Source: a virus
Direction: 5' to 3' (one strand)
Virus record (IMG/VR): IMGVR_UViG_3300042453_004721
Location: 1 to 21,010 of that record
Length of the DNA stretch: 21,010 bases
Positions 1,367-20,772 of this stretch are shown in pieces. The notes under the pieces are model-generated. The model was not told the origin of the DNA and ran no database searches. It saw nothing but the letters and a program-made list of their open reading frames with translations. Numbering within the stretch: the stretch's first letter is position 1; every line of letters begins with the position of its first letter. The position numbers and the translations under genes are program-made.

Positions 1367-1699
1367 ATGGCCGCAGGAATCTACAACTTTTCGATTGAAG
1401 AGGGGGCCGATTTTTCCATTGGGGTCCGCGTAAAAATCAACAACGAGATGCAGGCTCTGGCGGGGTGGCAATTCCACGCGCAATTGCGAACTGCGGTAAA
1501 CGGCACGCTGTTGGCGACGTTTATTTGCGAGCTTTGCGGCGACGGTGAAACGCTTCGGGTCGCACTTGACGCCGCGACAACGGATGAGCTCCTGCCGCAG
1601 AGCGCGCGATGGGATTTGCTGGCCGAGTTGCCCGATGGCCGCAAGCTGCGGCTTCTCGAGGGCAAAGTGACAATCTCTGGAAGCGTGACCGAATTATGA
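1367..1699 (+). CDS. Small phage tail-associated protein
   Basis: This 110-aa protein opens with a pattern ([21 protein letters not shown]) that resembles short beta-rich proteins encoded just before tail-fibre genes in many phages, where the first residues read like 'Y-F-I-E-Q-G-A-F'. The remainder alternates hydrophobic and polar residues as in a small beta-sandwich ([36 protein letters not shown]). There is no signal peptide or membrane segment. Its stop overlaps the start of the fibre gene by ATGA, which suggests coupled translation and a joint role in the tail tip. Function beyond 'structural, fibre-proximal' is not evident. The upstream gap holds no clear Shine-Dalgarno sequence. Confidence 0.75.
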
Positions 1700-4600
1700 G
1701 CTGCCCAACCTCCTGTGAAATTATCGTCTGCGAAATCCTAGCCGGAGCACCTGGCGCATTCGGCGGGGCTCAGGGGGCAACCGGGGCCACGGGCCCAATT
1801 GGCGCAACGGGCGTTGGAGCAACAGGAGCCACCGGCGAGATTGGCGCGACAGGCCCCGCTGGCGCTACGGGGCCCGCTGGAGCAACCGGCGCAGGTGAAA
1901 CTGGCGCGACAGGTGCAACCGGATCTATTGGAGCCACAGGGCCCGCAGGCGCTACAGGCGCAGGTGAAACTGGCGCGACTGGCGCAACCGGACTTGTTGG
2001 AGCCACAGGGCCCGCAGGCGCTACAGGCGCGACCGGCGCGACGGGATTGGCTGGAGAGGTCGGGGCAACTGGCATTGCAGGGCCAACAGGCCCAACGGGG
2101 GACGCTGGAGCTACCGGGCCCGCTGGGGCCACTGGTGAAGCTGGCATTGCAGGCGCAACCGGCGAAACCGGGCCTGCAGGAGCCACTGGCGAGGCTGGGG
2201 CTGTAGGAGCAACAGGAGCGACAGGTGACGCTGGGCCCGCAGGCGCAACGGGCGAAACGGGGTCTGCAGGAGCAACGGGCGAAACCGGGCCTGCTGGCGC
2301 GACTGGTCAAACCGGCCCTACAGGCGCGACAGGTGAAGCTGGGCCTGCAGGCGCAACCGGCGCTGGCGCAACCGGGGCGACGGGCCCCTCTGGGGCTCAG
2401 GGGCCGTCGGGAATTAGCTCGATTGACGCTTACTGGGGGTCGTTTTGGAGCACGGTTGATCAAACGGCCGCGGCGATCAACACGGGGTACCCGATTAGTT
2501 ACAACAACACGGACCCCGATTCTGCGGGCGTGTCTATTGTGTCGGGTAGTCGCGTTACGTTTGCTGTCGCTGGCGTTTATTCGATCACTTTCAGCGTTCA
2601 GTGGAACAACGCGAGTAACCAAATTCACGACGGCAACATCTGGCTCAGTAAAAACGGCACAACCGTTCCTGATACCGATTCCCGATGGAGTATTACGGAG
2701 AGCCACGGGGGCGCGCCGGGGCGGCAGATTGGCACGGTTAACTACGTTCTCAAGCTCGCGGCAAACGACTACCTCGAGCTCTATTGGCAGACCACCGACA
2801 CGGCGGTAACTCTCGAGTACGCACCGGCCTCTGCGCCGGCGCCGGCAATTCCGAGCGTGATTTTAACGGCTGCGCAGGTGCTCTACGGGCAACTTGGCCC
2901 GAGCGGCGCCACGGGATCCTCCGGGGCTCAAGGCGCAAGCGGCGCTACAGGTCCGTCTGGGGTTCAAGGGGCGACTGGAGAGGCGGGACCGCAGGGACCA
3001 AGCGGCGCCACGGGCGCAACAGGCGCGCAGGGCGATCAAGGACCATCGGGAGCGGAAGGACCAACAGGCGCGACTGGATCAGCGGGAATTGAAGGCCCAA
3101 CGGGAGCCACGGGATTGGAAGGGCCTACAGGCGCAACAGGCGTTGAAGGCCCAACAGGCGCAACAGGCGTCGAAGGTCCCACGGGAGCGACAGGCGTTGA
3201 GGGTGCAACTGGACCGTCTGGAGCCGAGGGCCCAACGGGCGCAACAGGCGTTGAAGGGCCAACTGGCGCGACGGGCGTTGAGGGTGCAACGGGCCCCTCT
3301 GGAGCCGAAGGCCCAACTGGAGCCACGGGCCCGGAAGGATCAAGCGGCGCGACAGGACCGTCGGGGCTTGAAGGGCCAACGGGGGCAACAGGAACCGAAG
3401 GGCCAACAGGGGCAACAGGTGTCGAGGGCGCGACAGGCCCTTCGGGAGCCGAAGGCCCAACTGGGGCGACAGGAATTGAAGGACCAACAGGGGCAACTGG
3501 TGTCGAGGGCTCAAGCGGCGCAACGGGGCCCTCCGGTTTGGAAGGCCCAACTGGAGCTACTGGACCGGAAGGTTCAAGTGGCGCGACTGGACCCTCTGGA
3601 GCCGAGGGCCCAACTGGGGCGACAGGCGTGCAAGGTTCAACTGGAGCCACGGGCCCGGGCGCGGCGGGCATTGGCGTTTTGACCGAGTTTGTCGGCAGCG
3701 GGGCAACACAGTTTTCGCCAATTAACGGCTACCTCGGCACCGAAGCGGCATCATACTTGGTGACAATTGACGGCACGATCCAACATCCGGGCGCAACGGA
3801 TGGCGCGTACACGATTACGGCCGCAAACGGCGGGACAATTACTTTTGCAAGCGCACCTGCCGTCGGGGCGCTTATCACGGTGCGTGTGGTGCGGGGAGAA
3901 ATAGGAGCCACCGGGGCTCAGGGCGTGCAAGGCCCGAGCGGGGCGCAGGGCGCGTCGGGGATCCAAGGCGTTTCGGGCGTTCCGGGAGAGGCTGGAGCCG
4001 TGGGATCCACCGGAGCCACAGGCCCGTCGGGGGCGCAGGGCGTCCAAGGCGTTTCGGGCGTCCCGGGAGAAGCGGGAGCCGTTGGGGCCACGGGGGCCAC
4101 GGGCCCTGCAGGTCCTTCGGGCACACCGTCAACGGTTTCAGGCCCAAGCGGGCCAGCAGGAGCCGTTGGTGCTACCGGAGCCACGGGTCCGGGGTTAGCG
4201 ACAACTAGCATCACGGCGGGCACTTATGGCAACAGCTCTTCCGTCGGAGCTTTTACGGTCAACGAATTTGGTCAGTTGACCGGAGCAACAAACTCTCTAA
4301 TTGCAATCAGTTCCGCTCAGATTAGCGGGCTGATCGCGACGAGCAAAATAAGCGGGCTAGCGGCATCCGCGACCACGGACACAACTAACGCGAGCAACAT
4401 CACGTCCGGGGCTTTGCCAACCGCGCAGTTGTCTGCAAGCCCGGTGACTCCCGGGACATACGGCAGCGGCTCGCAAGTCGCAGTGCTGGGCATCGACTCA
4501 AAAGGTCGTGTCACAAGCGCGTCCAACGTCGCAATTTCCGCAGCAGCGGGCGTTTCAACCTTTTCTGCTGGCACGACCGGTCTCACTCCATCGACCGCAA

Positions 4601-6012
4601 CGAGCGGTGCTGTGACACTTGGAGGGACGCTAGGGATTGCGAGCGGCGGGACAGGGTCGACAACTGCCGGTGGTGCACTTTCAAACCTTGGAGGGTACCC
4701 CTCAAGTAACCCAAGCGGGTACACGTCCAATACCGGCACCGTGACCTCGGTTTCCGGGACTGGTACCGTGAGCGGGCTGTCGTTGTCCGGCACGGTAACG
4801 GGGTCGGGCAACATTACCTTGGGAGGCACGTTGGCTGTCACTGCGTCAAATTTTGCAAGCCAGACCGCAAACACCGTCTTGTCTGCGCCCAACGGCACAG
4901 CGGGAGTGCCGACGTTTCGAGCGTTGGCCGCTGCGGACATTCCGGTCCTCAACCAAAACACGACGGGCACCGCGGCAAACGTCACTGGAACCGTTGCAAT
5001 CGCAAACGGAGGAACCGGCTCAACCACGCAGCAGGCAGCCGTGAACGCTTTGGCTGGGGCAGTGACCAGCGGGCAATTCCTGCGCGGGAATGGCGCCAAC
5101 GTGGTGATGTCGGCAATTCAAGCGGCGGATGTCCCGACCCTCAACCAAAGCACCACCGGCACGGCTGCAAACGTCACTGGGACTGTCGCAATTGCAAACG
5201 GTGGCACTGGGTCGACCACTGCTGGAGTTGCGCTCTCCAACCTTGGAGCGTATCCCGCATCCAACCCAAGCGGGTACACGTCCAACACAGGCACCGTAAC
5301 CTCGGTGTCCGGCACCGGCACTGTGAGCGGGCTGTCGTTGTCTGGCACGGTGACTGGAAGCGGCAACATCACCCTGGGCGGTACGCTGTCGGTTGCTCCG
5401 ACAAACTTTGCGAGCCAAACTGCAAACACGATCCTTGCGGCTCCCAACGGTGCAGCGGGAGTACCAACGTTCCGGGCACTAGCCGCCGCGGACATTCCAA
5501 CCCTCAATCAAAACACGACGGGCACCGCCGCAAACGTCACTGGCACTGTAGCAGTTACAAACGGCGGCACAGGAGCCACAACTCTTACCGGCTACGTCAA
5601 AGGGACCGGCACGGCGGCGCTCACAGGCTCCGCATCTGTACCGGTCGCAGACATCTCTGGGACGTTGCCGGTGAGCAAAGGGGGGACTGGGTCGACCGTC
5701 GCAAAAAACAGCACTTTCCAGAACATTACCGGTGTTGGAGTCTGGGCATCTGGGGACTTTCCACTCGACCCCACAGACACTCTGCTGTGGATCATTGATG
5801 CATCAAATGCTTCATCCATTGTCACATTACCCGATGTGTCCGCAACCACTGCTGGACGTCTGTTTATGGTCGCAAACCACAAATCAACGTCTTTAACCGT
5901 GCGGCTGTTTGGGACAACAACCACTTATACAACAATCCCCGCTGGGAAAATTGGAATCTTTACTTGCAACGGAAGCACAAACACTGCCGCCAGTTGGATG
6001 AACAACCTCTAA
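1696..6012 (+). CDS. Collagen-like phage tail fibre, 1438 aa
   Basis: I chose the ATG at 1696 because it overlaps the previous stop (ATGA); an earlier in-frame start at 1609 would lie inside the upstream gene. Visible order: a short Cys-containing head; a first Gly-X-Y block (about residues 19-240, dominated by GATG, GPAGATG); a globular beta domain (about 241-395) resembling the jelly-roll heads paired with collagen-like stalks; a second Gly-X-Y block (about 400-655); a small domain of about 75 residues (658-734) with the YLVTIDG...YTI...[11 protein letters not shown] pattern seen in fibre bead domains; a third Gly-X-Y block (about 735-833); then Thr/Ser/Gly-rich repeats of the [22 protein letters not shown] type, typical of caudoviral fibres; and a C-terminal domain ending in WMNNL. 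It probably forms a trimeric stalk for host binding. The downstream chaperone gene fits assembly of this protein. Confidence 0.92.
4645..5583 (+). repeat. Two direct repeats of about 385 bp inside the fibre gene
   Basis: Copies run from about 4645 to 5032 and from about 5200 to 5583, with 555 bp between equivalent positions. Both encode the same series: [87 protein letters not shown] partial extra copy of the last element lies between them. The copies differ mostly by silent changes, indicating duplication followed by selection for the protein repeat, and they could recombine to change fibre length. Confidence 0.85.
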
Positions 6013-10618: not shown

Positions 10619-11205
10619 ACTTGAATGTCCTCCAAACCCAAAGCCTCCACCTCGACAACATCCAAACCGAGGCCGACGCCGTCGCGCTTTTGGGCGTGCT
10701 TGATTGGGCTCGCAACGACGTGTTGTTTGGCCTTGGTGATTGGATGGTGGCATGCGCGGAGAAATTCGGCAAAGAGTGGGTAAACAATCAGTTGGAGCTG
10801 GCAACGTGGTCGTTTGAAGAAGCGTCCCGCGCGTACGAAGTCGCCAGCAAAATCCCGCGCGCAAAGCGGCACCGGGGGCTGAGTTTTGCCCACCACGCGG
10901 TTGCAGCCCGCAGCGAACAGCCGGAACTAGCGTTGGAGTGGGCGATGGAACAGGGCCTGAGCGCGGCCGAACTAGCGCACACGGTGCGGACGAAGGTCCA
11001 GCTGACAAAAGCAGAAATCGCTGCGCAGCGGTCAACCGCGTCGTTTGTGTCGCCGTCGCTTATTGCCGAGCGGTTTTCGCAGTGGCTCAAAAAAACTCCG
11101 CGCGACGCGTGGACGCGCGAAGACAAAGAAACGATCTACCGCGACCTGCGGCCGCTTTACGATTTCCTGCGCGAGATTGAAATTGATTTAGGCGTAAGCA
11201 ATTAA
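10615..11205 (+). CDS. ParB/KorB-like helical protein
   Basis: The start at 10615 overlaps the upstream stop (ATGA), giving 196 aa. The body is helical: ALLGVLDWARNDVLFGLGDWMVACAEKFG, then SRAYEVASKIPRAKRHRGLSFAHHAVAA, then ALEWAMEQGLSAAELAHTVR. The series 'hydrophobic helix, arginine-rich link, LSF-x-HH, helix, LS-x-x-EL-x-x-x-VR' resembles the DNA-binding core of ParB/KorB-type proteins, where this region is an HTH followed by a helix. No N-terminal nuclease or CTPase motif is present, so a full ParB is excluded. The last 50 residues include DAWTREDKETIYRDLRPLYDFLREIEI. Probably a DNA-binding replication or partition accessory; it converges with minus-strand genes and overlaps them by 18 bp. 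Confidence 0.68.
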   Translation: MNLNVLQTQSLHLDNIQTEADAVALLGVLDWARNDVLFGLGDWMVACAEKFGKEWVNNQLELATWSFEEASRAYEVASKIPRAKRHRGLSFAHHAVAARSEQPELALEWAMEQGLSAAELAHTVRTKVQLTKAEIAAQRSTASFVSPSLIAERFSQWLKKTPRDAWTREDKETIYRDLRPLYDFLREIEIDLGVSN

Positions 11206-11427
11206 ATTCCCAGGCTCGGCACTGCGGCGAACAAGTCGCCCGTGTTCAGTGTACAGCGTAACCGGCGGCAAAAGCCGCGCTTGCGACTGCACCGACCCGG
11301 GAATTTCGGTCGGCAAGCTGGTTTTCGGCATTTTGTCAAAAGACTCCACCACTGCCCGGACCAGCGGCCGAAGGTTGGAATGTTGGGCAACTTGGTAGAC
11401 GCTTGCAATCGGCTGGACGGAAATCAT
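11188..11427 (-). CDS. Hypothetical protein, last gene of the minus-strand operon
   Basis: I chose the ATG whose first base is at 11427; a TTG two codons upstream (11433) is possible, and a stop sits just before it. The 79-aa product begins MISVQPIASVYQVAQHSNLRPLVRAVVESFD, compatible with a helical fold, then has a Pro-rich middle and ends RLVRRSAEPGNLIAYA. There is no recognised domain. It overlaps the convergent plus-strand gene by 18 bp. I think it is real because its composition is protein-like while the other frames here are Trp/Cys/Arg-rich, but support is modest. Confidence 0.45.
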   Translation of the reverse strand: MISVQPIASVYQVAQHSNLRPLVRAVVESFDKMPKTSLPTEIPGSVQSQARLLPPVTLYTEHGRLVRRSAEPGNLIAYA

Positions 11428-11480
11428 GCACAACCGTCACGAACCCGGCGCGCGGCGTCAATTGCATTTGCCCGCCGGAT

Positions 11481-11633
11481 TCATTTTCGCAGGGTTTCCC
11501 GAGAAACGCCGAACTGCGTCACCATCTCAGCGTACAGGACCCCGCGAGCCCGCATGGCTGCGGCTTGTCGTTGAAGCGCCAATAGGGGCCCGGATTGGTA
11601 GGCCAAACTGCTGCGGTGCAATGTATCGCTCAT
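11481..11633 (-). CDS. 50-aa HTH-like protein
   Basis: A short minus-strand frame opens by ATGA overlap with the preceding gene (stop of 11630-12205) and runs 50 codons to a TGA at 11481. The second half, AAMRARGVLYAEMVTQFGVSRETLRK, fits a resolvase/Hin-type helix-turn-helix: a hydrophobic helix, Gly-Val turn, then SRETL recognition helix. The N-terminal half is SDTLHRSSLAYQSGPLLALQRQ. It looks like a small DNA-binding regulator, or the end of a recombinase-type HTH left alone. The overlap and HTH pattern support it, although it is short. Confidence 0.55.
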   Translation of the reverse strand: MSDTLHRSSLAYQSGPLLALQRQAAAMRARGVLYAEMVTQFGVSRETLRK

Positions 11634-12205
11634 TTTAGCGCCTGTTTTGCCAGTTCTTGAATTGCGTCAATCCGGTTGCTGTATTGCGACCACTCAATGT
11701 CCCGGATCCGTTCAAGCGCATACGTTAGCATCTCAATGCGTTTTTCCGCTTCTGCTAGGTCACTTTTTAGAGTTTGGATGATCGAGTCAGCCAGTTCTGG
11801 GTCACGCATGTATTTATTGCGCCAAGTCACTTTAGTGCTTTCTGTTTGATCTGCCGAGGATTGCTCGGCGGTTGCGCCGCCAACCGTCAAGGATTCCTTG
11901 TCAGTTGCCTCCTGCCACTTCCCCAACGTCCGCAGAAACGCCTCTGCACGCTGGCGGGCGGTGGCCCTGTAAGTTTTGCCAACCGTTCTGTACCAAATAA
12001 GATCTCCGTTGATTGCCCTTAAATTGGCAAAGTAATCCTCTTCCTGCTGGCTGGTCAGCACTTTCTCCGCCTCGTGCATCGCGTTGAGATCGTTGCAGTA
12101 ATTCAAACCTTGGTTGTAACTGCACGCTGGATCTGAGCACCGAGGACACCCAATCGGATTACCAAGTGCATCATGGATTGCAGCGTTGATTTGTTCGTCA
12201 GTCAT
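11630..12205 (-). CDS. Phage protein of unknown function, Cys-containing N-terminus
   Basis: This 191-aa protein begins MTDEQINAAIHDALG, has CPRCSDPAC near residues 20-28 (a possible metal site, with another Cys at about 37), then YCNDLNAMHEAEKVL and a segment (ATARQRAEAFLRTLGKW) that resembles small phage early-region proteins. The middle is polar and probably disordered (SLTVGGATAEQSSADQTES), and the C-terminal third is a long helix (LKSDLAEAEKRIEMLTYALERIRDIEW). There is no enzymatic motif. It lies in the minus-strand operon, 18 bp after the 12224-12730 gene and overlapping the 50-aa HTH gene by ATGA. Its start lies immediately next to three 11-bp tandem repeats. The function is unknown. 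Confidence 0.72.
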   Translation of the reverse strand: MTDEQINAAIHDALGNPIGCPRCSDPACSYNQGLNYCNDLNAMHEAEKVLTSQQEEDYFANLRAINGDLIWYRTVGKTYRATARQRAEAFLRTLGKWQEATDKESLTVGGATAEQSSADQTESTKVTWRNKYMRDPELADSIIQTLKSDLAEAEKRIEMLTYALERIRDIEWSQYSNRIDAIQELAKQALK

Positions 12206-12207
12206 GG

Positions 12208-12240
12208 CGTGTTTAATTCGTGTTTAATTCGTGTTCAATT
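12208..12240 (-). repeat. Three tandem 11-bp repeats at a gene junction
   Basis: Units at 12208-12218, 12219-12229 and 12230-12240 read CGTGTTTAATT, CGTGTTTAATT and CGTGTTCAATT on the plus strand. They span the stop codon of the 12224-12730 gene and the leader before the 12205 start. They look like slippage duplications; a protein-binding role is possible but not shown. Confidence 0.85.
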
Positions 12241-12730
12241 CTGTCAGCTTGTTAAGTGCTTGTAATGCCTCCACACACAAGCAACGGGATTTTGTGTAAG
12301 TAGGGCACGGGGGCTCTTCGGCACAAAGCACGGACGCTAAAGCCTCACGCGCCTTGTCGCAGGCTTGTCTCAGTTTTTCAATCTCAGCAGCCTGACCGCT
12401 GTTTTCGATCCGCAGGTCATGGATGATTTGCTCAAGCTCGGAACAGCGTTTTTGCGCTTCCGCAAGCTTGCGCCCAATCGTCCGGGGCGCTTTTGCTGGG
12501 ATTGCGAGCCCAAAAGCCATACACAGCTCCGTGTAGGTTTTTCGGCCAAACCCTCGTGTGTTGACCGTACTGGGCCGGAGAAGCCAATGCACCAGTTCAT
12601 CGCGGCCGCTGTGCATCGACGCAAACCGGGCAGCCCGAAAACTGAGGGGTGGCTTAATAACGACGCCAAGGTCGCGCGCGACTTTTTCGCGCCAAGCGAG
12701 TCTATCTTTTGTTTCGTGATGAGTGGTCAT
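12224..12730 (-). CDS. Protein with alpha-CTD-like helix-hairpin-helix and coiled coil
   Basis: I chose the ATG at 12730; a longer frame reaches 12862 but would overlap the upstream gene heavily and reads poorly. The 168-aa product has a segment (about residues 44-76) reading DELVHWLLRPSTVNTRGFGRKTYTELCMAFGLA. It resembles the helix-hairpin-helix of the RNA polymerase alpha C-terminal domain, where 'N-x-x-x-FGRKS-x-x-E-I-x-x-x-L-x-x-LGL' is typical. It is followed by a coiled coil (about 88-135) and a Cys-containing tail (PPCPTYTKSRCLCVEAL). I infer a nucleic-acid-binding protein, possibly acting on host transcription; this is unproven. It overlaps the upstream 12702-12905 gene by 29 bp. Confidence 0.68.
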   Translation of the reverse strand: MTTHHETKDRLAWREKVARDLGVVIKPPLSFRAARFASMHSGRDELVHWLLRPSTVNTRGFGRKTYTELCMAFGLAIPAKAPRTIGRKLAEAQKRCSELEQIIHDLRIENSGQAAEIEKLRQACDKAREALASVLCAEEPPCPTYTKSRCLCVEALQALNKLTELNTN

Positions 12731-12905
12731 TTTGGATCTGGAATTTTTCTGGTGTGAGTTTGTAACGGTGAGCTGCCGCGCGGGCCTCGTCCGCAGTGGC
12801 AAATTGAGTTGCTGCCGCTTTATCCGCAGGCCCGACGTAAACGTCGCGGCCGGACAGCTCAACTAACAGCCAGCAGCCGGTTTCACGGTGCCGGATTCGG
12901 AGCAT
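12702..12905 (-). CDS. Small hypothetical protein, 67 aa
   Basis: The ATG at 12905 gives MLRIRHRETGCWLLVELSGRDVYVGPADKAAATQFATADEARAAAHRYKL and more, a compact alpha/beta-type sequence with a hydrophobic strand (CWLLVEL) and an Ala-rich helix. A longer frame from 13097 crosses the neighbouring gene and is Cys/Arg-rich, so I rejected it. It overlaps the genes on both sides (23 bp upstream, 29 bp downstream), which fits a compact operon. No family is recognised. No Shine-Dalgarno sequence is visible. Confidence 0.6.
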   Translation of the reverse strand: MLRIRHRETGCWLLVELSGRDVYVGPADKAAATQFATADEARAAAHRYKLTPEKFQIQNDHSSRNKR

Positions 12906-13107
12906 TCGGTTTTTTGCGGCGGTTTTTTGTCGCGTACCACATCGACTGACGCATGCCCGTCGCCTCCAAGCCGCGGCGCGCTTCCCACGCGCGCAGCGCG
13001 GCGAGCATATCGCCAACTTGTTCGGGGTAGTTGGCCCCCGCGGTGTCAATGTCCATTGGCTGATTAAGATGCGCCCCCATAGTGCGCTGCGCGTCACGCC
13101 TCCCCAC
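12883..13107 (-). CDS. Small hypothetical protein, 74 aa
   Basis: On the minus strand, AGGAGG sits six bases before a GTG at 13107, the clearest Shine-Dalgarno in this operon, so I prefer that start; an internal ATG at 13080 is possible. The product reads MGRRDAQRTMGAHLNQPMDIDTAGANYPEQ then LAALRAWEARRGLEATG, ending in a basic, Pro/Asn-rich tail (NRRKKPNAPNPAP). It looks mostly helical in the middle. There is no known domain. It overlaps the upstream coiled-coil gene by 14 bp and the downstream gene by 23 bp. Confidence 0.6.
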   Translation of the reverse strand: MGRRDAQRTMGAHLNQPMDIDTAGANYPEQVGDMLAALRAWEARRGLEATGMRQSMWYATKNRRKKPNAPNPAP

Positions 13108-13279
13108 GGTGCGCCTCCTCTCTGGCTTTTGCCCGGGCCAAAAATTCTTGGTTCACGCCAGCGCGGCCAGCAGCGAGTTCTTGGCGCAGGCGTTGGAGTT
13201 CCTGCACGGTTTCTCGCAGCGCGTTTTTCAGCGCTTCGGTCTCCCGGTGCAACCGGTCGATTAACGTGTCAATGTTCAT
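13094..13279 (-). CDS. Small coiled-coil protein, 61 aa
   Basis: The 61-aa product is a nearly continuous charged helix, MNIDTLIDRLHRETEALKNALRETVQELQRLRQELAAGRAGVNQEF, followed by LARAKAREEAHRGEA. Heptad spacing of Leu suggests a coiled coil that dimerises or binds a partner. Its start lies inside the 3' end of the 53-aa membrane gene (11-bp overlap), and it overlaps the next gene by 14 bp. There is no Shine-Dalgarno sequence. I know no specific family. The composition fits a phage early protein that binds another protein. Confidence 0.6.
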   Translation of the reverse strand: MNIDTLIDRLHRETEALKNALRETVQELQRLRQELAAGRAGVNQEFLARAKAREEAHRGEA

Positions 13280-13430
13280 TCTGGAGGTCGTGAGCTGTTA
13301 GGATCATGATTGTGACGGCACTTAGGCTGAGGGCCGCCCAAACAAACGCCTCCGCGGTGCCGGCGGCTCGCACTAAGTGGGCAGCGTCAAAAAACGCAAG
13401 CCCTGCAGATAGAAAAAAACGTGTGAGCAT
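13269..13430 (-). CDS. 53-aa membrane protein
   Basis: A minus-strand frame from the ATG at 13430 encodes MLTRFFLSAGLAFFDAAHLVRAAG, then TAEAFVWAALSLSAVTIMILTAHDLQNEH. It shows two hydrophobic stretches (about residues 4-17 and 28-45) joined by a short polar turn, as expected for a two-pass inner-membrane protein. The stop overlaps the following coiled-coil gene's start region, and the start lies 8 bp after the stop of 13439-13765. It could be an early membrane protein such as a superinfection-exclusion or holin-like factor, but nothing in the sequence picks one. Confidence 0.6.
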   Translation of the reverse strand: MLTRFFLSAGLAFFDAAHLVRAAGTAEAFVWAALSLSAVTIMILTAHDLQNEH

Positions 13431-13438
13431 ATCGTGTT

Positions 13439-13765
13439 TTAATCGTTAAGGATCTGAGGCAAAAACCCAAGGGAGACAAGGGCATCTTCCAGCGTGTGGT
13501 GCACTCGGGCGAAGTCCGGGATTTCTTCCAGCGCAATCTCGTGGAACAGCGTGCCTTTGCACCGGCCTTTGCCATTGTCCCAAACGCTATACGTCTCGGC
13601 GATCAGGCGCCGGTTGCGCGGCTGCCAGTAAAGCGCCTGCAGAGTGACGCCGGTTTTTGTTTGGTACCGGGAAAACGCGGCGCCGGGATCGCGTTGCCAG
13701 ATAGGCGCGCCGACGGTGGTTTTTTTAGTGCTCCAGGTGTCTGCTGTTTCGTACGTGATAGTCAT
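13439..13765 (-). CDS. Hypothetical protein, first gene of the minus-strand operon
   Basis: This 108-aa protein begins MTITYETADTWSTKKTTVGAPIWQRDPGAAFSRYQ and contains ALYWQPRNRRLIAETYSVWDNGKGRCKGTLFHEIALEEIPDFA, a beta-then-helix pattern with many Trp and Tyr residues. There is no signal peptide, membrane segment or known motif. Its leader of about 30 nt is C/A-rich and has no Shine-Dalgarno sequence. It is the first gene downstream of the operator/promoter at 13802-13832, so it would be the most strongly expressed member of the operon. The function is unknown. Confidence 0.68.
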   Translation of the reverse strand: MTITYETADTWSTKKTTVGAPIWQRDPGAAFSRYQTKTGVTLQALYWQPRNRRLIAETYSVWDNGKGRCKGTLFHEIALEEIPDFARVHHTLEDALVSLGFLPQILND

Positions 13766-13801: not shown

Positions 13802-13832
13802 AAAGTAGCAAACGCTTGCGCAAATGCAAGCG
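13802..13832 (-). promoter_or_regulatory. Operator CGCTTGC-N6-GCAAGCG over promoter of the small-gene operon
   Basis: A 20-bp inverted repeat with perfect 7-bp arms and a 6-bp centre lies at 13813-13832. On the minus strand it contains a TTGCAT -35; 16 bp further on is TACTTT (13807-13802) as a -10, giving a start near 13795 and a leader of about 30 nt to the ATG at 13765. On the plus strand the same repeat could serve a weaker opposite promoter (TTGCGC, then TGAAAA 16 bp later). The arm sequence and -35 overlap recur at 15538 and 17484. Confidence 0.6.
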
Positions 13833-13849
13833 GTTTGTGAAAATTTTTT

Positions 13850-13935
13850 TTGCGGCGTAAAATGCGCATTGCCAGCGCTTTGCGAAAGCGGCGCGCCCCA
13901 AGCGCAAAAAAATTCTTGGGGCGCGCGCGTTTTTT
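13850..13935 (+). ncRNA. Possible small RNA ending at a perfect terminator
   Basis: A plus-strand transcript from the weak promoter at the 13813 operator would start near 13850 and carry a 6-bp hairpin (13876-13890, CGCTTT-GCG-AAAGCG) followed by the terminator at 13891-13935. No open reading frame of note lies within it. Promoter strength is doubtful, so this is a structure-based guess. Confidence 0.25.
13891..13935 (+). terminator. Intrinsic terminator reading toward the annealing-protein stop codon
   Basis: Perfect 12-bp arms (13891-13902 GCGCGCCCCAAG and 13915-13926) enclose a 12-base loop, followed by GCG and six T at 13930-13935 on the plus strand. The T-run overlaps the minus-strand stop codon of the RecT-like gene. 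On the minus strand the hairpin forms too but lacks a following U-run, so its best reading is plus-strand. Confidence 0.65.
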
Positions 13936-14656
13936 ACAGCCAGTCGTCGGCTTTTTCTTGCAGCGCAGGTGTGTCCGCCACAGTCTCAACAACGGTAACG
14001 GGTTCCGCGGTTACCTCTGCAGCCTGCACCGGTTTTGCCTTAGCGAGCCGCTTGTTTACATCCGCGGCGCGGTCAACGCGTTCCGGCCGCCCGTGTACGT
14101 CCTCAACCTCATCCGCAGAGTGCATGCCGGACAACACGTCCGGGGCGTACAGCCGGCCGAAAAACGCTGCGGCACGGTAGCGCAACATTAACTCCGGCAT
14201 CGTTTTCCATTTTGACCCGTTTTTTGTGCTCCAGCCTTCGGCCTTGGCCATCGCGATGGACGCCGGGGGGCCCTCGAGCTCTTCCCCGGTCGATTTGTCG
14301 TATGCCCACGCGCGACAGCTTGCGGCTTCACCCTCGCCCTCGATCCGAAACCGAATCGGCGAAAATCGCCCGCAGCTATTGAGCGCCGCGATAATAAACG
14401 ACGACGACCAGGAGGGGCGCCCGTGGATGATGTGGAGGTTTTGCATCACCGCAAGCGGGGAAGCGCCGATGCGTTGACTCATTTCAAGCGCGATGAGCGC
14501 GTTCCCGATTTTTTCAGCGCCACGGTATTGCTCCGGGACGAGGTCCGAACTGCAGAGGGCTTTTGCCATGCGCTGCGCCGCTTCAAACCCGGCGACGCCG
14601 GAAAACGCGGTAAGCTGGGTGTTGTTGTTTGCGGGTGTTGTTGTTGCGAGTTCCAT
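13934..14656 (-). CDS. RecT-like single-strand annealing recombinase
   Basis: This 240-aa protein has a conserved core reading AQRMAKALCSSDLVPEQYRGAEKIGNALIALEMSQRIGASPLAVMQNLHIIHGRPSWSSSFIIAALNSCGRFSPIRF, then KAEGWSTKNGSKWKTMPELMLRYRAAAFFGRLYAPDVLSGM. I associate this core with phage RecT-superfamily proteins, which anneal complementary single strands after an exonuclease has resected an end. The C-terminal 70 residues are Ala/Val/Glu-rich, probably a flexible tail ending in acidic-hydrophobic DDWL, like the SSB-type tail that recruits partners. The gene follows the exonuclease on the same strand with 12 bp between, matching the usual exonuclease-annealase pair. No Shine-Dalgarno precedes the ATG. 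Confidence 0.75.
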   Translation of the reverse strand: MELATTTPANNNTQLTAFSGVAGFEAAQRMAKALCSSDLVPEQYRGAEKIGNALIALEMSQRIGASPLAVMQNLHIIHGRPSWSSSFIIAALNSCGRFSPIRFRIEGEGEAASCRAWAYDKSTGEELEGPPASIAMAKAEGWSTKNGSKWKTMPELMLRYRAAAFFGRLYAPDVLSGMHSADEVEDVHGRPERVDRAADVNKRLAKAKPVQAAEVTAEPVTVVETVADTPALQEKADDWL

Positions 14657-14668
14657 GTTGGTGAGTGG

Positions 14669-15496
14669 TTAGATTTTGGCGAATGCGGGAATGGTCAGCG
14701 GTTGAGCATCAGTCGGAAAACCGGGCCATAACCCAGAACCAAGGCACGATTTGTACGTCTCCAAGTCCGTTTTGTAAGCAACTCGGCCTGCGTCGACAAA
14801 TTCGTCGGTAGCGACAAATACCTGCACCAGGTACGGAGGTTCCTTTTCGACCGCAATAAAAACAAACGATTCCGCGGGGTGCCGCAAAGTGCGTAATGCG
14901 TCGAGGTAAAACGCAGCTTGAACGTGATACCGGTATTTCCACGCGTCGCGTTGAAACGCATCGGCGCTGGCGTTTAGCGTAGTTTTGAGGTCGACCGCTA
15001 ACATGTCGACGGTCACCTGATCCGGCCGCGCGCGGCATTTGACGCCGGTGTCGGTGTCAGTCCAATACAGCGACATCTCCGCGGTCGAGGCGTATCCGCC
15101 GGCCAGAATGCGGCCCGCAGTTGGGTGATCATGCACGGCCTCGGCGATTCGGACCAGTTCGGCGTGCTCGTCGCGCGTCACCGGTTCGCGGCTGCCCGCT
15201 TCACGGACAAACGCGTCCCACGCTTCTTTTCCGGCTTTTGTGCGCCGGTCGATGTCGCCCGGCACGATCGCGGTTTCTTTGGGGACGTTATCCCACTCGA
15301 GCGTGTAAAGGTGGACCAAAGTTCCCCAACGCTGGGCCGGAGTGCGGCCTTCCGGGGGCGCAGTCAGTCGGGCGTGATACACCGCCGGAGCGCGGCGGAT
15401 GAGGTCGAGGCCGTGCTTCGAAACGCGGGTTTTGTCCGCGTGGTACTCGACCGCGGGTAGGTTTTCGACGATTTTGTTTTCGGTTGTTGATGTCAT
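14669..15496 (-). CDS. PD-(D/E)XK exonuclease, RecE/YqaJ-like
   Basis: The ATG at 15496 gives 275 aa; a longer frame to 15574 would run through the operator. The core matches phage RecE/YqaJ-type nucleases: SKHGLDLIRRAPAVYHARL, then WGTLVHLYTLE with His62, then Glu140, RPD with Asp159, and VDLKTT with Asp169 and Lys171 forming the D-x-K of the PD-(D/E)XK fold, and a later helix with YRYHVQAAFYLDAL. It should resect double-stranded DNA ends 5' to 3' using Mg2+, feeding the annealase encoded 12 bp downstream. Expression would come from the minus-strand promoter in the 15525-15553 interval, with a leader of about 22 nt. It has no signal peptide. Confidence 0.85.
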   Translation of the reverse strand: MTSTTENKIVENLPAVEYHADKTRVSKHGLDLIRRAPAVYHARLTAPPEGRTPAQRWGTLVHLYTLEWDNVPKETAIVPGDIDRRTKAGKEAWDAFVREAGSREPVTRDEHAELVRIAEAVHDHPTAGRILAGGYASTAEMSLYWTDTDTGVKCRARPDQVTVDMLAVDLKTTLNASADAFQRDAWKYRYHVQAAFYLDALRTLRHPAESFVFIAVEKEPPYLVQVFVATDEFVDAGRVAYKTDLETYKSCLGSGLWPGFPTDAQPLTIPAFAKI

Positions 15497-15524
15497 ATTT
15501 TTTGCCCGGTTTTTGGGCGTTGGC

Positions 15525-15567
15525 ATTTCAATCTGAACTTGCAAGGGTGCAAGCAATTTTTTATCGT
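15525..15567. promoter_or_regulatory. Divergent promoter with operator CTTGC-N6-GCAAG
   Basis: An inverted repeat with 5-bp arms lies at 15538-15553. The plus strand has TTGCAA then, 16-17 bp later, TTATCG/TATCGT as -10, placing the start at about 15573, i.e. on the ATG of the regulator gene. The minus strand has TTGCAC then, 16 bp later, TGAAAT, placing the exonuclease start near 15518. One bound protein could block both. Confidence 0.55.
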
Positions 15568-15572
15568 AGAGC

Positions 15573-15761
15573 ATGAGTTTGACCAGTTCGACCGCAATTC
15601 TTGCGGCATTAGACGCTCAAAGAAAGGCACTTCCGATAAGTCGGAAAAAATGGCTGCGGGCTGCACGTGTCGCGGAGTCGACTTTTTACCGGTGGCAAGC
15701 TGGGCGCACTGAACCGACTTTTCGCACGCTGCAACGACTTGAACGTGCGCTGGTGAAATGA
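15573..15761 (+). CDS. Cro/CI-like HTH regulator, 62 aa
   Basis: The 62-aa product is essentially one DNA-binding domain: ISRKKWLRAARVAESTFYRWQAGRTEPTFRTLQRLERAL, with a helix, a turn at the ESTFYRW recognition helix, and the 'G-R-x-EP-x-x-x-TL-x-x-L-x-x-AL' ending typical of Cro/CI-type HTH proteins. It lacks a dimerisation or cleavage domain, so it resembles Cro more than CI. The gene abuts the operator at 15538 and is first in an operon with the helicase (ATGA overlap) and nuclease. I infer that it binds the CTTGC-N6-GCAAG repeats and controls its own operon, the recombination genes and the small-gene operon. Its predicted transcript is leaderless. Confidence 0.75.
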   Translation: MSLTSSTAILAALDAQRKALPISRKKWLRAARVAESTFYRWQAGRTEPTFRTLQRLERALVK

Positions 15762-17143
15762 CGCTGCGGCCGTACCAGGAGGAGGCCATCAGCGCAGTCC
15801 GTGCGGCGTTTGCTGCGGGGCGCCGTGCGCCTCTTTTAGTTGCCCCGACGGGCGCCGGGAAAACCGTCATGTTTTGCTACGTCACGCAGGGAGCCAAAGC
15901 AAAGGGGCGCCGGGTTATGATCCTGGCGCACCGGGCCGAGCTTCTTGACCAAACGTCCCGCGCGTTGATGGGGTTGGGAATTTCCCACGGCATGATCGCC
16001 GCGGGCCGCACGGCAGACCGCACCGAGGCCGTGCAGGTCGCCGGGGTGCAGACGCTGGTGCGGCGTCTGGGCAACACGCCACCGCCGGACTTGCTCGTCA
16101 TCGATGAGGCCCATCACGCTGCGGCCGGGAGTTGGCGCGCGATTGTGCAGGCGTTCCCGGCGGCAAAGATTCTTGGCGTAACGGCGACTCCAGAACGACT
16201 CGACGGGAAAGGGCTGGGCGATGTGTTTGATGACCTCATCCGCGGACCGGAAGTGGCGGACCTCATTACTGCGGGGTTTTTGTCGCGGCCCGTGTACTAC
16301 GCCCCGACAACGGCGAGCTTGGACGGCGTTCGGACCACCGCGGGCGATTACAACAAGGCGGACATTGAGCAGGCCGTTAACCGGCCGACCATCACGGGAG
16401 ACGCAGTGACGCACTACCGGCGACTGTGCGCAGGTGTCCCGGCTATCGCGTTTTGCGCTTCGATTGCGCATGCCGAAAACGTCGCGGCAAATTTTCGCGA
16501 GGCGGGCTTTCGGTGGGGCGTGATCGACGGCACGATGACTCCCGAGGTCCGGCGGCAGGCTGTCGCCGACCTTGGCACGGGCGCACTGCATGGCCTCTCT
16601 TCGTGTGAGATTGTTAGCGAGGGGTTTGACCTGCCGTGCGTTACGGCGGCGATTTTATTGCGGCCGACCAAATCGTTGGCGCTGTACCTGCAACAAGTCG
16701 GGCGCGTGCTGCGGCCGCATCCGGGAAAACAAAATGCGGTCATACTTGATCACGTGGGCAACGTGCTCCGCCACGGATTGGCGGAGGAACTGCGGGGGTG
16801 GTCACTTGAGGGCGCAGGGGAGCGTCGGCAAAAACGCACGGCGGATGACGGCATAAAAAACCGGCAATGCCCCGCCTGCTATGCGGTCCATGCGCCCGGG
16901 CTGGTTTGCCCGTTGTGCGGGCATGAGTATGAGGCCAAAGGCCGCCAGGTGGAGGAAGTCGCCGGCGAACTTGAGCAACTCGACGCCGAGCGGTTGGCTG
17001 CAGTCAGAAAACACAAAGCGCAAGGCAAGGCGCGGACGCTTGGCGAGCTGATCGCACTTGGCCGCGCGCGCGGATACAAAAACCCAACTGCATGGGCGAG
17101 CTATGTCTTCACCGCGCGGCAAAAACGGGGGGTGCCGGTATGA
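15758..17143 (+). CDS. SF2 DEAD/DEAH-box helicase with zinc ribbon, RadD/YejH-like
   Basis: This 461-aa protein has the full SF2 set: LRPYQEEAI (Q-motif region, 3-11), Walker A APTGAGKT (29-36), DEAH (116-119), VTATPER (motif III), then PAIAFCASIAHAEN and EGFDLPCVTAAILLRPTKS, and QQVGRVLR (motif VI, about 312-319). A four-Cys zinc ribbon (Cys371, 374, 384, 387) follows, and then a helical C-terminus. Family knowledge: RadD/YejH-type and phage relatives act on branched or damaged DNA, and phage versions serve replication or recombination. The start overlaps the regulator's stop by ATGA, and the end overlaps the VRR-NUC gene's start by ATGA. DNA unwinding or translocation is likely; the substrate is unknown. 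Confidence 0.9.
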   Translation: MTLRPYQEEAISAVRAAFAAGRRAPLLVAPTGAGKTVMFCYVTQGAKAKGRRVMILAHRAELLDQTSRALMGLGISHGMIAAGRTADRTEAVQVAGVQTLVRRLGNTPPPDLLVIDEAHHAAAGSWRAIVQAFPAAKILGVTATPERLDGKGLGDVFDDLIRGPEVADLITAGFLSRPVYYAPTTASLDGVRTTAGDYNKADIEQAVNRPTITGDAVTHYRRLCAGVPAIAFCASIAHAENVAANFREAGFRWGVIDGTMTPEVRRQAVADLGTGALHGLSSCEIVSEGFDLPCVTAAILLRPTKSLALYLQQVGRVLRPHPGKQNAVILDHVGNVLRHGLAEELRGWSLEGAGERRQKRTADDGIKNRQCPACYAVHAPGLVCPLCGHEYEAKGRQVEEVAGELEQLDAERLAAVRKHKAQGKARTLGELIALGRARGYKNPTAWASYVFTARQKRGVPV

Positions 17144-17478
17144 GCGAAAAACTTTTGCAAGCGCAAATCATGCGCGAGCTGGGCAGTCGGCCGGACGTGC
17201 GCATTTTTCGGAACCAGGTTGGCACGTACCGACTCGAGGACGGGCGCGTAATTACCTCGGGGCTTTGCAAAGGTTCCGCGGACCTTGTCGGGTGGCAAAC
17301 CGTTACCATCACGCAAGATATGGTTGGCAAGCAGGCCGCGGTTTTTCTTTCGGTCGAGGTCAAAGGAGAACGTACTCGGGTCACGCCGGAGCAAAAAAAT
17401 TGGGCGGCGTTTGTCAAAAAATGCGGCGGCAAAGCTGTAATTGCTAGGAGTTTACAAGACGCGGAAAAAATCTTGTAA
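17140..17478 (+). CDS. VRR-NUC domain nuclease
   Basis: Starting at the ATG at 17140 (ATGA overlap with the helicase), the 112-aa protein is a single VRR-NUC domain: N-terminal helix, IFRNQVGTYRLEDG, GSADLVGW with Asp48, then SVEVKGE with Glu73 and Lys75, and PEQKNWAAFV with Gln85. These are the PD-(D/E)XK-type catalytic residues. Phage VRR-NUC proteins are thought to be Holliday-junction or structure-specific nucleases, often beside helicases as here. The coupling suggests the helicase and nuclease act on the same DNA structure. The stop codon lies within a 9-bp inverted repeat (17451-17479). Confidence 0.87.
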   Translation: MSEKLLQAQIMRELGSRPDVRIFRNQVGTYRLEDGRVITSGLCKGSADLVGWQTVTITQDMVGKQAAVFLSVEVKGERTRVTPEQKNWAAFVKKCGGKAVIARSLQDAEKIL

Positions 17479-17479
17479 A
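17451..17479. repeat. 9-bp perfect inverted repeat around the VRR-NUC stop codon
   Basis: TTTACAAGA at 17451-17459 and TCTTGTAAA at 17471-17479 are separated by 11 bases. The stop codon lies in the right arm. No U-run follows on either strand, so it is not a classical terminator. It lies 5 bp before the operator at 17484, and might be an mRNA end-stabilising hairpin or a second binding site. Confidence 0.7.
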
Positions 17480-17483
17480 AAAA

Positions 17484-17514
17484 CGCTTGCAAACATGCAA
17501 GCGGCGGCTAGAGT
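17484..17514 (+). promoter_or_regulatory. Promoter with operator CGCTTGC-N6-GCAAGCG before the 61-aa gene
   Basis: The perfect 7-bp-arm inverted repeat at 17484-17503 includes a TTGCAA -35 (17487-17492); 16 bp on is TAGAGT (17509-17514) as -10. The predicted start, near 17521, coincides with the ATG at 17522, so the mRNA would be leaderless. The arrangement of arm, -35 and spacer is the same as at 13813. Confidence 0.6.
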
Positions 17515-17521
17515 GGTGCGC

Positions 17522-17707
17522 ATGACAACCACCATTTGCGATCCCAAAGACAAAAACACCCTTTTCGTTTACGTAAAAGAAAACAACCGCCTGACTCCAA
17601 AAGGCTACGTGCACTGCGTTTCGGCGACTGAATGGCAGGTTTACAACGCATCCGGCGAGTTTTTGGACTGGGCACCATCAAAGGCGGCGGCAATTGCCGC
17701 CCTGTAA
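17522..17707 (+). CDS. 61-aa orphan protein, independent transcription unit
   Basis: I chose the ATG at 17522 because it lies just downstream of the promoter; a frame from 17441 would run into the upstream gene and through the operator. The product is TTTICDPKDKNTLFVYVKEN, then RLTPKGYVHCVSATEWQVYNASGEFLDWAPSKAAAIAAL: beta strands followed by a helix, with two Cys. There is no known domain. It has its own operator-controlled promoter and a strong terminator 18 bp after its stop, the layout of a phage cargo (moron-type) or immediate-early gene. The function is unknown; candidates include a host-takeover or anti-defence protein, but nothing identifies one. Confidence 0.75.
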   Translation: MTTTICDPKDKNTLFVYVKENNRLTPKGYVHCVSATEWQVYNASGEFLDWAPSKAAAIAAL

Positions 17708-17725
17708 AACCAACGACAACAACCC

Positions 17726-17755
17726 GCCCCCGGCCAAAACCGGGGGCTTTTTTTT
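17726..17755 (+). terminator. Strong intrinsic terminator
   Basis: Perfect 8-bp GC arms (GCCCCCGG at 17726-17733, CCGGGGGC at 17740-17747) with a CCAAAA loop are followed by eight T (17748-17755). It ends the 61-aa gene's transcript, and its T-run stops only 4 bases before the primase-helicase ATG at 17760. Confidence 0.93.
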
Positions 17756-20378: not shown

Positions 20379-20504
20379 CGCGCGTATGCGTACACGGGCG
20401 CGCGTACACACGCACGCGCGATCACGCACGCGTACAGGCGCACGGGCGGGTACGCACGCACGCGTACACGGGCACGCGCGATCACGCGTACGCGTACGCA
20501 CGCG
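20379..20504. repeat. CG/TA-rich alternating purine-pyrimidine repeat tract
   Basis: The tract is made largely of CGCG, CGTACAC and CACGC elements. A 16-bp direct repeat, GCACGCGCGATCACGC, occurs at 20412-20427 and 20472-20487, and CGTACACGGGC occurs at 20389-20399 and 20463-20473. Alternation breaks at a few GG or GAT steps. Such sequence can form Z-DNA or cruciforms under negative supercoiling. Confidence 0.8.
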
Positions 20505-20621
20505 AGGATTTTGCAAAACCGAGGGGGGTGTTTGCGGCGTTTGCAAACACATAACCTACACAAACACAGAGGCTTCTGCGTTCTGTTTGCAGTTTTGCGG
20601 ATTTTGCGGGGGCATATACCT

Positions 20622-20672
20622 CACATGTGTGTGTGTGTGCGCACGTATACGCGTGTGTGTGCGCGTGTGCGC
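20622..20672. repeat. 51-bp perfect alternating purine-pyrimidine tract
   Basis: Every step from 20622 to 20672 alternates pyrimidine and purine, made of TG, CG, CA and TA dinucleotides, ending at a CC at 20672-20673. This is one of the clearest Z-DNA-prone sequences in the window, and it lies just before the AT-rich patch. Confidence 0.9.
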
Positions 20673-20772
20673 CTGCACACATACATGAACCTTCTCTCTA
20701 ATTTTGCAAAATATGTATGTATAGAGAGAGAAACACTCTGTAGGACAACGATTTAAGGTGTCTGCAACGGCC

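Follow-up and report, generated by a model that had tools for sequence, protein, structure and literature searches.

A probable Cro-like autorepressor and three palindromic operators at putative early promoters of an uncultured phage

We propose that a 62-aa helix-turn-helix (HTH) protein acts as a Cro-like autorepressor that damps three early transcription units of an uncultured phage, and we consider this, taken whole, the best and a probable explanation of the data. The DNA analyzed, here called the window, is a 21,010-base IMG/VR virus record. The protein would bind CTTGCA-N4-TGCAAG palindromes, probably as a dimer, and the left arm of the palindrome would supply the -35 region of each unit (Table 1). 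The first unit would be a small-gene operon running leftward from 13765; the second a divergent pair, exo-recT on one side and the HTH, helicase and nuclease genes on the other, which includes the regulator's own gene; and the third an exchangeable accessory gene ended by a terminator of its own. Covering of the -35 would repress all three promoters, the regulator's own among them, as Cro does. The early genes would be expected to fire on entry and then to be damped as the protein accumulates. We favor repression over activation because the operator overlaps the -35; activation by phage Xre proteins is also possible. That the operator-bearing units are early is suggested by their content of recombination, replication and small accessory genes.

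Table 1. Features of the window that bear on the proposed regulon
Feature	Position	Strand	Basis or remarks
Small ORFs downstream of operator 1	11188..13765	-	about eight counted; the first is 108 aa
Inferred promoter at operator 1, TTGCAT-N16-TACTTT	13802..13829	-	sequence, alignment; TAGAGT in G002
Operator 1, CGCTTGCGCAAATGCAAGCG	13813..13832	.	precedes minus-strand small-gene operon; sequence and shuffles
RecT-like annealing protein	13934..14656	-	phrog_561, E 8e-84
Exonuclease VIII-like PD-(D/E)XK nuclease	14669..15496	-	phrog_412, E 1e-74; DUF3799; divergent from HTH gene
Operator 2, CTTGCAAGGGTGCAAG	15538..15553	.	between divergent exonuclease and HTH gene; sequence and shuffles
Xre/Cro-type HTH protein of 62 aa, which probably binds the three operators	15573..15761	+	profiles, AlphaFold2, Foldseek
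Superfamily II DNA helicase	15758..17143	+	phrog_16, E 2.7e-103; ResIII; start codon overlaps HTH stop
VRR-NUC nuclease	17140..17478	+	PF08774, E 6.4e-11
Operator 3, CGCTTGCAAACATGCAAGCG	17484..17503	.	precedes accessory gene; sequence and shuffles
Inferred promoter at operator 3, TTGCAA-N16-TAGAGT	17487..17514	+	sequence; kept in relatives
61-aa accessory gene	17522..17707	+	unrelated ORFs instead in G001 (76 aa) and G002 (116 aa)
Intrinsic terminator at the end of the accessory cassette	17726..17755	+	kept in relatives

The pattern CTTGC-N6-GCAAG occurs exactly three times in the whole window (13815-13830, 15538-15553 and 17486-17501), where 100 dinucleotide shuffles average 0.07 and reach 1 at most, and every copy is intergenic or lies immediately 5' of a start codon. 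A sequence-only reading had picked out these three repeats, with CTTGC arms and a 6-bp center, in what it took to be promoter gaps, and the counts bear it out, as they do its remark that the arms of two of them (sites 1 and 3) are perfect over 7 bp. Its nine-gene operon behind site 1 comes to about eight small minus-strand ORFs by our count. Among five-letter arms at a spacing of six, CTTGC alone reaches three copies, both in the window and in its close relative G002. When two mismatches are allowed, the count in the window (16) falls to the chance level (16.45), so only exact sites are meaningful. The one-mismatch sites, at 12451 and 14440 in the window and at 4842 in G002, all fall within coding DNA, which leaves the operator set sharply defined.

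Each operator overlaps a TTGCA-type -35 element with 16–17 bp to a -10, and the spacings claimed in the earlier reading were reproduced at all three sites. Operator 2 has TTGCAA-N17-TATCGT on the plus strand, and sites 1 and 3 share one geometry: TTGCAN in the left arm, 16 bases and a -10-like hexamer. Because the -10 at site 1 of G002 is GGCTAGAGT, which also stands at site 3 at an equal distance, a common promoter module is supported. When viral contigs were scanned for the operator together with the -10, only these phages and the close relative L224 came up. The -35 and -10 elements are weak sigma-70 matches that fall below the promoter-scan threshold and are absent from its list, and the promoters are for this reason given as putative. 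Between recT and operator 1 lies a strong plus-strand hairpin (13883-13934; -38 kcal/mol, z -3.4) followed by six T, in which one A-T pair is replaced by G-C on both sides in relatives; it is possibly the terminator of a short plus-strand RNA that starts from a TTGTGA-N17-TAAAAT site at 13835-13863. Downstream of the primase gene, at 20380-20720, the window also holds long alternating purine-pyrimidine repeats (CGCGTACGCG, TGTGTGCGCG).

Profile searches with the 62-aa protein gave weak HTH_3, CII-like and DicA/RstR-like matches. Its HTH_3 (PF01381) score of 14 bits lies below the Pfam cut-off of 23, which is passed by a single homologue, that of G015 (24.4 bits). AlphaFold2 predicts a four-helix HTH fold (helices 5-19, 24-30, 35-42 and 50-61; pLDDT 89), and Foldseek places it with Xre proteins and P22 c2 (5woq, TM 0.77; 3jxb, TM 0.65), the matches having a probability near 1.00 though E-values of about 0.1. 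A dyad-symmetric operator stands at the regulator's own promoter in the window (operator 2), with counterparts in L211 and L149 and, with one mismatch, in L014.

The same protein could instead act at the same sites as an activator in the manner of lambda CII, which would produce a delayed-early regulon with positive feedback. PHROGs assigns 'CII-like regulator' to four of the five HTH family members, the weakness of the -35 and -10 elements would suit an activated promoter, and TTGC, the core of the lambda CII half-site, is common to both systems. CII, however, recognizes a direct TTGC-N6-TTGC repeat that flanks the -35, whereas the arms here are inverted and lie on it. CII also carries a C-terminal tetramerization segment, but the modeled 62-aa protein ends with helix 4 and is too short to accommodate such a tail. 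The commonest NCBIfam names for the family, moreover, are those of the repressors DicA and RstR. We regard CII-like activation as unlikely.

Evidence that operator and regulator belong together comes from other phages. In G015/L211, the HTH homologue is 58% identical, and the 58 bp between its gene and that of the divergent exonuclease contain an exact CTTGCTGCGATGCAAG, with a chance expectation of about 1e-5 to 4e-5. The homologue at this place in L014 is 41% identical, and the equivalent gap holds the one-mismatch CTTGCATTCTGCCAAG and an additional CTTGCA direct half-site, spaced N7. Across 80 loci of helicase-bearing relatives (783 kb) there is one exact site in total, in coding DNA of L061, where a homologue of the HTH regulator was not detected; the Fisher test on this contrast in site presence counts close relatives as independent and is not to be taken at face value. 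No other recurrent palindrome in these 80 relatives was comparable. In other helicase-bearing phages (L010:4744-5001, L012:4747-5001, L016:1146-1391 and L020:4756-5001), small proteins encoded immediately 5' of the helicase resemble, by eye, DNA-binding proteins of different kinds, and the position looks like a regulator slot.

The pairing can also be approached from the DNA. A scan by the operator pattern alone returned 120 stretches, and when the HTH-family profile was run over their ~17,000 open frames, an 89-aa Xre protein of L149 ranked first (E 2.9e-4). Two exact palindromes and a one-mismatch third (3172, 3202 and 3221) immediately precede the start of its gene, and the protein has 14 of 29 residues in common with the 62-aa protein across the recognition helix. 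As this link was not sought beforehand and concerns one stretch in 120, we take it as good, not decisive, support. L149 is an unrelated 114-kb element in which two divergent HTH genes are separated by several CTTGCA-N4-TGCAAG-like sites (3040-3240), an operator cluster that looks like a genuine switch. L149 excepted, the 7-bp-arm scan of viral contigs yielded mostly chance matches and simple repeats (L098 was rejected). L120 and L169 have two exact sites each and no matching HTH gene alongside, and an exact site of G011 (9653) is in coding DNA. The HTH homologue of L071 has a different upstream repeat, TTGCGCAAG-N7-CTTGCGCAA, which is suggestive only and was not counted.

It is also conceivable that some other protein, encoded by the host or elsewhere in the phage, binds the operators and that the HTH gene is simply one of its targets. 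Marginal HTH matches in other small ORFs offer candidates, but in both G015 and L014 the operator accompanies the HTH gene, it is missing from the 80 helicase relatives barring the coding-DNA site, and it predicts an Xre gene in L149, all of which make this reading rather improbable. Judged from these comparisons, the 62-aa HTH protein is probably the binder of all three operators. The sequence-only reading had named it as such and had called the arrangement an undescribed lysis-lysogeny-type switch; its choice of binder stands as the most likely one, by the co-occurrence in relatives and the DNA-to-protein test, and the switch does not.

Two near relatives, G001 and G002, were retrieved with the HTH protein as query. 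G001 (13.5 kb) is 94-95% identical to the window across the greater part of their common DNA; for G002 (33 kb) the identity is about 79-90% in the main blocks. Both ends of the G002 record fall inside one collagen-like gene, which suggests that the record covers the complete genome, possibly short of some repeats; in the window this very long repeat gene is unbroken (1609-6012). Each relative has exactly three exact sites, at positions that match those of the window. The earlier concerns that the repeat might be equally common in coding DNA or missing from relatives are thus answered: exact sites of these phages occur only in promoter gaps, and the equivalent promoters of the relatives do carry them. 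Operator 1 is unchanged in both. Operator 2 has an altered center and intact arms in G002, and operator 3 has intact arms and the center ATCCTT in G001, G002 and L224. Over the three site alignments, 0 of 30 arm columns vary compared with 6 of 18 center columns (Fisher p 0.0015). Since the window, G001, G002 and L224 are closely related to one another, independent support is that from G015, L014 and L149.

The constancy of the arm letters, with no compensatory changes, favors recognition by a protein over an RNA stem. Two of the three sites do score as terminator-like, and site 3 folds into an 8-bp stem, yet RNA hairpins acting as terminators or attenuators are highly improbable here, given that the T-runs do not keep to one strand with respect to the genes and that the -10 elements and inferred starts come downstream of the sites; Rfam returned no match.

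We give equally little credence to a full lysis-lysogeny switch. Such a switch would have a Cro/CI-type protein and, at a divergent promoter, an operator, as this phage does, but a tyrosine or serine recombinase is missing from both the window and the near-complete relative, and a second HTH_3 repressor from the latter. Searches for PF00589 and PF00239 found no integrase or recombinase in G000, G002, G015 or G011, whereas positive controls were detected. In four records searched whole, there is one HTH_3 match per record, this HTH protein, and hence no opposed second repressor; the divergent gene encodes an exonuclease. The gap between the divergent promoters holds one exact site and no tandem operators. 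The absence of a recombinase and of a second HTH_3 repressor, together with a nuclease gene as divergent neighbor, leaves the switch unsupported, though the phage may have a plasmid-like lysogeny.

Behind operator 3, the promoter, start codon context and terminator at 17726-17747 are conserved along with the operator itself in the window, G001 and G002, while the ORF between them differs; BLASTP among the 61-aa, 76-aa and 116-aa ORFs found no match. L224 has the G001 version of the cassette, and the window's first gene after operator 1 (108 aa) is likewise replaced in G002. From these alignments, the accessory gene at operator 3 is an exchangeable cassette under what appears to be operator control. 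More tentatively, a lone Cro-like protein may govern the early promoters of a lineage without recognizable lysogeny genes, with the operator-promoter module serving as an exchange slot; we hold this possible, but would not yet call it probable. If true, swapped-in accessory genes would come under early control at once.

The proposed autorepressor resembles lambda Cro and P22 c2 (Cro/C1-type, PF01381) in being a small HTH protein with palindromic operators over the -35 and an autoregulated divergent early region, and P22 c2 is among its best fold matches. Unlike these phage repressors, it has a single operator at each promoter, lacks a CI partner and has exo/recT and helicase/nuclease units as its targets. 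Mycobacteriophage repressors also act at several dispersed sites, as here, but their stoperators are numerous and asymmetric (PMC9283540, PMC6550527), in contrast to three symmetric sites, all at promoters, in 33 kb (G002). By terminase, the nearest cultured phage is Verrucomicrobia phage P8625 (23% identity), a lytic phage of 33 kb that carries recT, helicase, resolvase and primase (PMC4642752). It is distant from the window's phage and differs in gene order, and the kinship is at most suggestive of a host link. Neither terminase nor HTH relatives were found in bacterial genomes. We found no earlier description of the operator sequence, or of Cro-like control in lytic phages, in the open-access literature searched.

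The control proposed here is of a familiar phage kind, in a new lineage. Through it, an uncultured phage group gains a concrete and testable regulator-operator pair, and the operator becomes a DNA tag that points to the early genes of the group. As L149 suggests, it may be possible to find a matching regulator from operator DNA by itself. Genes that lie behind the tag and differ between near-identical phages are good candidates for host takeover or anti-defense.
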